Source: an uncultured cyanobacterium (GTDB lineage Bacteria; Cyanobacteriota; Cyanobacteriia; Thermostichales; Thermostichaceae). From it: a DNA stretch of 32,723 bases. Below are positions 4,262 to 6,980 of this stretch, piece after piece. The stretch covers positions 1 through 32,723 of the forward strand of contig CALFBB010000039.1 in NCBI GenBank assembly GCA_937944885.1, written 5' to 3'. Position numbers and translations under genes: made by a program. Each line of letters opens with the position of its first letter. Position 1 is the first letter of the stretch. The notes beneath the pieces were generated by a model. It was not told the origin of the DNA and searched no databases. It saw only the letters and a program-made list of their open reading frames with translations.

Positions 4262-5368
4262 TCATACCGAATGTGGGGTCGGGGAAGCGGGATCCCAAGG
4301 GAAATCCGGCCAAGTCCACATCGGGTCGGTGGAGCGAACCCGGTGCATGCCGGCTGCGGCAAAGCTGGCAAAAGCTGCATCCGCCTGCTCACTAAAATCC
4401 ACTACCCCCGGAATCACCACCGGCGAGGTGCAATCTTCTAGAAGGTAAACCTTGCCGGCCAGCTTGGGATCACGGGCTTGGATTTCCTCTAACAGATCGC
4501 TCACCGTCCAGGCCAGACAATGGCTTTTGGCTTGGCCGGCAATGATCAGAGCATCAAACCCCAGCAAAAAGTGGATCAGCTGCTCATTTTTTTCGTCGAT
4601 GGGATCCCCTTCCGGCCCGGTTAAGACTTCTGGGCTGAGTACCGAATAGTTCTCCGTTAGAGGGTTAGCCCCTTTCAGTTCCAAACTAGCCTGGCTGCAG
4701 CGGGCCAAGCTGTGGAAAAAAATCGCCTCCTCCACCGCCGGCACCAACGCATGACCAATGCCCCCCAACATGGAGTGATAAGGCCAGACCATGAGCGGGT
4801 ACTTTCCCCCTTCTTCCAGCTGTTGGGCATAGTGCAGAGCATGGGCTTGCAATGTCGACAGATCCCCCCGGGTTAAGCTGGCGGCCACAGCAGGGTTCAC
4901 CTGCCAGCGACCGGAGCGAATCTCCTCCACCGAGATCGGGGTTGCCGGTTGTGGATGGGATCCCTGGGCATCCACCCAAAAGATGGGGTGGAAAATCTGC
5001 ATGGCCGTGTGGGTGTCCAGGGTAGCAACGATTTGGGTAATCTGGGCCAGGTTGCGGTAGATAAACTGGCAAAGACGTTGATTGTCTTCCACCGCCCCCT
5101 GCCCGGAGCTACCGGCAACAAACAACTCGAACCCAGGGATACAAAAGGTATTCTGCACATCAATCAACAGCAGGCCCACCCGCACCCGATCCTTCGCCGC
5201 TGCCGGGATCCCGTGTTGCTTGGCCCAGGACTCGGCTTCTGCAGCCCGTTGTTGGTAGGGCACACGCCACACTTCTCCCACCCGCTCCGCCTGAAAGTGG
5301 GGGGGCAAGGGCAGGGTTCCGGCAAAGGGAGCATCGGCAGCTCTCTCCTGTACAGGGGTGATCGTCAT
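4262..5368 (-). CDS. Isochorismatase-family cysteine hydrolase, probable nicotinamidase-like
   Basis: A 368-residue member of the isochorismatase/nicotinamidase superfamily. The catalytic triad is visible as D70 ([10 protein letters not shown]), K189 ([12 protein letters not shown]) and C284 ([11 protein letters not shown]). D118 and H120 in TLDTH, with H127, match the metal-binding D-x-H...H of nicotinamidases, which isochorismatases lack. Nicotinamidase deamidates nicotinamide to nicotinate, the substrate of PncB, and a divergent pncB starts 256 bp away, so an NAD-salvage role is the best inference. The protein is much longer than typical PncA (about 180-220 residues), with an extra N-terminal segment and insertions between 130 and 260, so another amide substrate is possible. 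A 21-bp palindrome lies 66 bp upstream of the ATG. Confidence 0.8.
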
Positions 5369-5433: not shown

Positions 5434-5454
5434 TTATGGTTGTTTTTACTATAA
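5434..5454. promoter_or_regulatory. 21-bp palindromic operator candidate, hydrolase side
   Basis: The site reads TTATGGT-N7-ACTATAA, where the arms are inverted repeats except for one base. The same arms at the same spacing recur at 5578-5598, next to pncB. On the minus strand it contains TATAGT, which could serve as a -10 element for the hydrolase gene starting at 5368. A shared repressor of NAD salvage, for example of the NrtR type, is a reasonable hypothesis; no regulator gene is in the window. Confidence 0.6.
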
Positions 5455-5577
5455 GTGGGAGCCGTTAAGCTTGTCCAGCCGGTGGGGATCGGCAGCAAAA
5501 AAGCTGTGGCAAAAAAGGTTGAAGTCTCTTCACACAAGGGCTGAGCCAAGAGAGGGATCCCCTAACAGATATCCTTC

Positions 5578-5598
5578 TTATGGTAATTTTTACTATAA
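5578..5598. promoter_or_regulatory. 21-bp palindromic operator candidate overlapping the pncB -10
   Basis: TTATGGT-N7-ACTATAA, identical in both arms to the site at 5434-5454 and in the same orientation. A perfect TATAAT hexamer (5594-5599) lies within and just beyond its right arm, so a protein bound here would cover the pncB promoter. The site ends 26 bp before the pncB start at 5625. Confidence 0.65.
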
Positions 5599-5624
5599 TT
5601 GGCCTTCTCCCCCGAGGTTACTTC

Positions 5625-6980
5625 ATGCTGGCCCCTGACTTTTCGTCGTTGCAGCCGCCAGACTATGGCCTGCTGACGGACCTTTACCAGTTCACCATGG
5701 TTGCCTGCTATGCGGGAGAAGGTCTGGAAGCCCAGCCTGCGGCTTTTGAACTGTTTGTGCGGCGGTTGCCCCCCGACTATGGTTACCTCATTGCCATGGG
5801 TCTTACCCAAGCGGTGGAGTACCTGCAGCAGCTGCACTTCACGCCAGACGCCTTGCAAGCCTTACGGGATACCGGCATTTTTAATGACGCACCGCAGCGG
5901 TTTTGGAGCTTGCTGGAAGAATGCCGTTTTCAGGGAGATGTCTGGGCAGTGCCGGAGGGATGCGCCCTTTTTGCCAACCAACCCTTGCTGCGCATCGAAG
6001 CCCCCTTATGGCAGGCGCAACTGGTGGAAACCTACCTGCTGTCCACCTTTAATTACCAAACCTTGATCGCTACCAAAGCCGCACGCATGCGGGATGCAGC
6101 CGGGGATGAAGCCATTTTGCTGGAGTTTGGCACCCGGCGGGCCTTTGGTCCACAGGCGGGGTTGTGGGCAGCACGGGCTGCTCTGGCGGCAGGCTTCAAT
6201 GCCACCTCCAACGTACTGGCGGCCCTGAAATTGGGTCGCAAACCGGCAGGTACCATGGCCCATTCCCTGGTCATGGCCATTGCTGCTTTGTCCGGCGATG
6301 AGACCCGGGCCTTTCAGTCCTTTCAGCGCTACTTCCCGCAAGCAGCTCTGTTAATTGATACCTACGATCCCATTCAAGGGGCACGTACAGCAGCTCAACT
6401 GTTTGCAGCGAAAAACCCAGACCAACTGGGATCCCGTGGGGAGTTTGGTGGTGTACGCATCGACTCCGGTGATTTGGAAGCTCTCTCCCGCCAGGTGAAG
6501 CAAATTTTGCCTCAGGGATCCCCGGTGTTTGTGAGTGGGGATTTGGATGAGTATGAAATCGAACGGCTGCATCGCTCGCAAGCTCCGATTAGCGGCTATG
6601 GGGTCGGTACCCGCTTGGTGAGCGGGAACGGGGTCAACGGCGTGTATAAGCTGGTGGAAATCAACGGCATCCCTGTGGCCAAAGCCTCCTTTGCCAAGGC
6701 TACCCTGCCGGGGCGCAAGCAAATCTTTCGCGGCCCCAGCTGCGATTGGCTCGGTCACGCAGAGGAAACTCCCCCCCCCGGTTGTGAGCCGCTCCTGCGC
6801 AAAGTGATGCAGGCGGGGGTGCTTCTCGAGCCTTTGCCGGATCTGGAAACCATTGCCCACACCAGTCGCGCCTCGGTCACCCGACTTCCTAAGGGGGTGA
6901 GACAGCTGCGCCAGCCGGATCCCTGGCCGATGAACCTAACCCAGACTTTGCAGCAGCTGAAAGATCAACCCCTACCCTGA
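5625..6980 (+). CDS. pncB: Nicotinate phosphoribosyltransferase
   Basis: A 451-residue enzyme that condenses nicotinate with PRPP to nicotinate mononucleotide in the Preiss-Handler NAD salvage route. Family signatures include YGLLTDLYQFTM near the N-terminus, AAFELFVRRLPPDYGYLIA, LLEFGTRRAFGPQAG, GGVRIDSGDLEAL and GVGTRLVSG. I chose ATG 5625 (MLAPDFSSLQPPDYG) over an in-frame ATG at 5580. The earlier one falls inside the palindrome and predicted -10 element, whereas a GAGG ribosome site (5614-5617) precedes 5625 and the protein then begins as in the family. It is divergent from the nicotinamidase-like gene and apparently shares regulation with it through paired palindromes. A hairpin follows the stop. 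Confidence 0.94.
   Translation: MLAPDFSSLQPPDYGLLTDLYQFTMVACYAGEGLEAQPAAFELFVRRLPPDYGYLIAMGLTQAVEYLQQLHFTPDALQALRDTGIFNDAPQRFWSLLEECRFQGDVWAVPEGCALFANQPLLRIEAPLWQAQLVETYLLSTFNYQTLIATKAARMRDAAGDEAILLEFGTRRAFGPQAGLWAARAALAAGFNATSNVLAALKLGRKPAGTMAHSLVMAIAALSGDETRAFQSFQRYFPQAALLIDTYDPIQGARTAAQLFAAKNPDQLGSRGEFGGVRIDSGDLEALSRQVKQILPQGSPVFVSGDLDEYEIERLHRSQAPISGYGVGTRLVSGNGVNGVYKLVEINGIPVAKASFAKATLPGRKQIFRGPSCDWLGHAEETPPPGCEPLLRKVMQAGVLLEPLPDLETIAHTSRASVTRLPKGVRQLRQPDPWPMNLTQTLQQLKDQPLP

Follow-up and report, generated by a model that had tools for sequence, protein, structure and literature searches.

Twin palindromes between divergent NAD-salvage genes of a Thermostichaceae cyanobacterium are probable operators of an NrtR-type repressor

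In an uncultured, thermophilic cyanobacterium of the family Thermostichaceae, a pncA-like gene and pncB are divergently oriented, and two copies of the sequence TTATGGT-N7-ACTATAA lie between them (5434–5454, box 1; 5578–5598, box 2). Which NAD regulator acts at this divergent pair? The analysed stretch (the window) comprises positions 1–32,723 of contig CALFBB010000039.1 and belongs to the genome designated here as G000. A preliminary description of this DNA had noted twin 21-bp palindromes with identical arms and an N7 spacing, and had considered a single repressor that senses an NAD-related metabolite likely, leaving the choice between NrtR and NiaR open. The palindromes were recovered exactly as described, and the evidence presented below answers the question in favour of NrtR.

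The 7-bp arms are the same in both boxes and the spacers differ, with TTATGGT-TGTTTTT-ACTATAA in box 1 and TTATGGT-AATTTTT-ACTATAA in box 2. Six of the seven arm positions are mutually complementary, so that each box is an imperfect palindrome. When up to three mismatches were tolerated, four matches were found in the window, which correspond to the two boxes, each read on both strands. After dinucleotide shuffling of the window (100 shuffles) the mean was 1.01 matches at the same tolerance, and none of the 100 shuffles reached four. In genome-wide pattern searches, the exact sequence occurs twice in the 2.8-Mb genome, with the two copies 144 bp apart, compared to ~0.008 occurrences expected on both strands from base composition. 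Matches with one or two mismatches were not commoner in the genome than matches to the reversed control. A one-mismatch site near prk/petH (C35:31163) was attributed to chance, as it was conserved in none of the five sister species, and a two-mismatch site (C16:30818) was rejected because it lies within a coding ORF. The features of the locus are collected in Table 1.

Table 1. Positions of the salvage genes, predicted operators and promoter elements in the window, and loci of the second box type
Feature	Position	Strand	Basis
pncA-like gene P0001 (368 aa), nicotinamidase-fold amidohydrolase	4262–5368	−	Invariant residues and fold matches
Box 1, predicted NrtR operator of the pncA-like gene	5434–5454	−	Exact motif; minus-strand sequence TTATAGTAAAAACAACCATAA; overlaps a sigma-70-like promoter
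TGGACA-N18-TATAGT, promoter-like, for the pncA-like gene	5448–5477	−	Consensus scan; −10 inside box 1
Box 2, predicted NrtR operator of pncB	5578–5598	+	Exact motif; overlaps TATAAT
TATAAT, probable −10 of pncB	5594–5599	+	Sequence; box 2 holds most of the element
pncB, nicotinate phosphoribosyltransferase	5625–6980	+	NF006696, 583.6 bits, above cut-off
TTAGTGT box and clade-A loci	L215–L225; L042, L045, L102, L114		

The product of the pncA-like gene is barely recognised by sequence profiles. P0001 scored 20.4 bits against the curated nicotinamidase model PRK11609, which has a cut-off of 174 bits, and gave no Pfam match. Its residues D70, K232 and C284, as well as D118, H120 and H127, were invariant in 24 aligned sequences. 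We take the first three to be the Asp-Lys-Cys triad and the last three to be the Asp-His-His metal ligands of an isochorismatase-like fold. The nine best PDB fold matches of the predicted P0001 structure (mean pLDDT 80) were all nicotinamidases, with a best E of 4.7e-8. These residues and the predicted structure indicate that P0001 is likely a nicotinamidase, and the box in front of its gene supports this role. The protein is conserved in cyanobacteria, yet hardly detected by profile databases. In other cyanobacteria, the pncA-like gene is often located 3′ of PP2C-like and kinase-like ORFs, apparently in one operon (L085, L087, L088 and L164).

The longest pncB ORF begins at 5580, within box 2. 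The true start is likely at 5625, since homologues in sister species begin with MLAPDFSS or MLSPDFSS. Automatic gene calling would place the start at 5580 and include the segment 5580–5624 in the gene. Box 2 ends 26 bp before this most likely start, and the distance between the end of box 1 and the start codon of the pncA-like gene (5368) is 65 bp.

Both boxes coincide with promoter elements. The TATAAT that the preliminary description had placed across the second box is indeed present, and no strong −35 element was seen for it. The promoter-like sequence of the pncA-like gene is a consensus match alone, agreeing at 10 of 12 positions, with one such sequence found and 0.3 expected. In both promoters, the probable −10 element is covered by a box.

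The motif is retained between the divergent genes in five of the six species of the genus. Box 1 retains its arms and position in these five species; box 2 is exact in four of the six. Among the sister species, both boxes are kept in G002–G005, with one base missing from box 2 in G002. The flanks and spacers vary and the intergenic sequence has diverged, while the arms are conserved as a footprint. Four sister species also carry a near-perfect box upstream of nadE, of which the window genome retains an eroded half site (L244). The remaining species, G001, is a natural experiment, being a Thermostichus sister without nrtR and without boxes at the places examined. No NrtR was found in this genome, which is rated 100% complete, nor any nrtR remnant at the position where G004 carries nrtR, and no box was found before pncA/pncB, nadE or the symporter gene described below.

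Next, the distribution of the motif was analysed across cyanobacteria with the slightly relaxed form TTATGGT-N7-ACYATAA. This motif was present in 76 of 242 genomes, and 81 sites were inspected. Of the 81 sites, 72 lay no more than 260 bp from an NAD-related target. Fifty of these 72 sites were located at pncB, either alone (42), together with a pncA-like gene (7) or together with a second PncA-type gene (1); motifs of the box 2 type precede pncB in dozens of cyanobacteria. PncA-like genes accounted for 14 sites (7 alone and the 7 shared with pncB), and the other targets were nadA (10), nadM (1, with a nadV-like ORF following nadM), nadD (1) and a Thermostichus symporter operon (3). Two of the nine remaining sites also fit, one lying 263 bp from a nadD-nrtR pair (L128) and the other heading an operon that ends in a pncA-like gene (L164). 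Gene names other than pncB, pncA-like and NrtR were assigned by eye from sequence resemblance. With nadE included, the motif occurs across cyanobacteria before pncB, pncA-like, nadA, nadD, nadE and nadM, and it heads operons that include a Nudix-HTH gene. The operator definition given here predicts NAD-gene control across cyanobacteria.

The Nudix-HTH gene is part of a recurrent operon with the order [box]-pncB-nadD-nrtR-nadE; its third gene codes for a protein with a Nudix and a winged-helix domain. By comparison of coordinates and inspection of loci, nrtR-B (the nrtR of clade B, see below) was placed no more than about 3 kb from the box in at least 43 of the motif genomes (n = 76), typically in this operon. 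NrtR-B was encoded by all 76 motif genomes, compared to 113 of the 166 genomes without the exact motif (Fisher p ~9e-11, ignoring relatedness). The apparent exception among the motif genomes, G007, has a full-length NrtR-B copy with an insertion. The 113 genomes that encode NrtR-B and lack the exact motif may use variant boxes.

The window genome contains exactly one NrtR_WHD match, in an NrtR encoded at C28:37118–37924. This protein matched NUDIX (55.9 bits), NrtR_WHD (65.0 bits) and AraR_C (142.6 bits), all above their cut-offs. It scored 123.5 bits against NCBIfam NF050029 (ADPR-responsive repressor, equivalog), with a cut-off of 400, and is thus related to this narrower group without being an equivalog of it. 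According to the Nudix motif rule GX5EX7REUXEEXGU (PMC4666351), the motif is broken in clade B, where R-x-L-x-E-K-x-R stands in place of the expected R-E-U-x-E-E-x-G. The nrtR gene of the window genome is unlinked to NAD genes and has no box upstream, so that no autoregulation is evident there.

Recurrence of the motif, its linkage to Nudix-HTH operons, the conserved divergent pair and the joint loss of boxes and NrtR support the single repressor that had been proposed for NAD salvage. Together with the lack of NiaR, they strongly favour NrtR of the two candidates between which the preliminary description did not choose. With a probability of about 0.92, the twin palindromes are NrtR operators through which NrtR would repress the pncA-like gene and pncB until it is released by an ADP-ribose-type ligand. 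An NrtR dimer on each box would cover the −10 region of both promoters and block transcription of both genes. Upon breakdown of NAD, ADP-ribose or a related product would bind to the degenerate Nudix domain and free the repressor, whereupon the nicotinamidase and the nicotinate phosphoribosyltransferase would be made and nicotinamide would be recycled to NAD. Cleavage of NAD yields nicotinamide and ADP-ribose. Release by ADP-ribose would fit because nicotinamide arises together with it and the released genes recycle nicotinamide. As each box overlaps with a probable −10 element, repression is likely steric, with relief by ADP-ribose. The ligand in the window genome is likely ADP-ribose by analogy with the published NrtR proteins of Synechocystis and Shewanella, both of which are released by it (PMC4666351). 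Points against this reading are the unlinked nrtR without a box of its own, the eroded nadE box of the window genome and the genomes with NrtR-B that lack an exact motif.

The boxes could also bind NrtR with a different outcome, in which the signal is NAD or another pyridine intermediate, or in which NrtR activates the genes instead of repressing them. Ligands do vary within the NrtR family, where BtAraR responds to arabinose and NdnR of C. glutamicum to NAD; however, the NrtR of Synechocystis, a member of the same phylum, was reported to respond to ADP-ribose (PMC4666351). The position of the boxes over the probable −10 of both promoters suits repression rather than activation. We consider such a deviation from the proposed mechanism unlikely.

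A second possibility is that a different regulator binds the TTATGGT boxes and that NrtR merely shares the operon. This has to be weighed together with a second type of box. The cyanobacterial NrtR proteins form two clades, A and B, each monophyletic (support 0.84 and 0.90, respectively) and 44% identical to each other, and the Nudix motif is apparently intact in clade A and broken in clade B. The sequence TTAGTGT-N7-ACACTAA was found exact in 11 of the 242 genomes, and in all 11 it adjoins nrtR-A or a pncA-like, ADP-ribosylglycohydrolase-like or PP2C-like ORF. At L016 (1459–1479, and just upstream) and L044 (3944–3964), both kinds of NrtR box are adjacent before one pncA-like gene, which suggests joint control of this gene by two NrtR paralogues. 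Two regulators can therefore act at such a site, and the arms of the clade-A box differ from those of the TTATGGT box, both of which speak for this possibility. However, the second NrtR clade accounts for the second box type, NrtR-B accompanies the motif in every motif genome, and motif and nrtR were lost together in G001. In an unsystematic inspection, no other regulator was seen at these loci. We regard a regulator other than NrtR as quite improbable. Action of NrtR on the window pair via the TTAGTGT box was rejected, as both this box and a second NrtR are absent from the window genome.

NiaR controls niacin genes in other phyla (PMC7713382), but its 3H domain (PF02829) had no match in the window genome, of which roughly 5% may be missing, and was found in the B. 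subtilis and T. maritima controls; NiaR is therefore rejected as the regulator for this assembly, with a negligible probability left to it. Chance duplication of a functionless promoter or AT-rich motif, to which the −10-like TATAAT and TATAGT within the arms might point, is refuted by the conservation of the arms amid varying flanks and spacers, by the minute number of exact matches expected and by the NAD-gene targets across the class, and has practically no probability.

The switch proposed here, repression by NrtR, is of an ordinary, known kind, to which this lineage adds some new details. That NrtR regulates NAD genes is already known, and a characterised member of the family exists in Synechocystis. 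The NrtR family and the NrtR regulon of Synechocystis were reportedly described by Rodionov et al. in 2008. As predicted for the present locus, a Nudix-HTH repressor controls NAD genes in Synechocystis, and ADP-ribose was reported as its ligand (PMC4666351). The nadE gene of Synechocystis is slr1691 (PMC7196632), and in many of the cyanobacterial loci examined here, nadE lies 3′ of nrtR. In contrast to the Synechocystis regulon, nrtR of the window genome is unlinked, its predicted targets are the divergent pncA-like gene and pncB, and tandem boxes occur at a PanF-like symporter operon. SoNrtR of Shewanella oneidensis (PDB 3GZ5, 3GZ6) has the same two-domain architecture as the window NrtR, with full-length homology at E 1.8e-32 and a Nudix motif that is degenerate in both proteins, and is about 39% identical to clade B. 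Between groups of the NrtR family, DNA motifs vary strongly (PMC4666351). MsNrtR of Mycobacterium smegmatis is likewise an NAD-gene repressor with an N7-spaced palindrome, but differs in its operator, GTTTTCGA-N7-TCGAAAAC, and in its targets, nadABC (PMC6800001). The best sequence match to the window NrtR among solved structures is BtAraR (PDB 5BS6; E 1.2e-35), whose operators are also 21 bp long and in places tandem; unlike NrtR, it responds to arabinose, and its targets are sugar genes rather than NAD genes (PMC4666351). NiaR and NadR also repress NAD salvage or synthesis and belong to protein families unrelated to NrtR.

The symporter operon is preceded by tandem boxes, one exact and one near-exact, at L001:7188–7234 (C25:83187–83233 of the window genome), as well as at L168 and L167. 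In the window genome, G002 and G005, these tandem boxes are followed by a membrane-like ORF of 85 aa and an SSS-family symporter; they were not found before the symporter in G001, G003 and G004. The symporter is PanF-like and scored below the PanF cut-off (192 vs 328 bits). The boxes point to it as a candidate vitamin-B3 transporter, and in view of this score the substrate is hypothetical.

A joint reading of both clades, in which cyanobacteria share out NAD control between two NrtR paralogues with operators of their own, is possible and is put forward tentatively. NAD synthesis and salvage would be the task of clade B, whose Nudix motif is broken and which would use TTATGGT-N7-ACYATAA boxes. 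Clade A, in which the Nudix motif is apparently intact, would act through TTAGTGT-N7-ACACTAA boxes to control the nicotinamidase-like gene, the ADP-ribosylglycohydrolase-like gene and the PP2C-like/kinase-like pair, and may both sense and destroy ADP-ribose. Some clade-B regulons of Thermostichus would have captured the PanF-like sodium symporter, which, if this reading is true, would be a vitamin-B3 transporter. At a further locus (L145:69–500), nadA and a Nudix hydrolase-like ORF are arranged divergently, with a TTATGGT box between the two.
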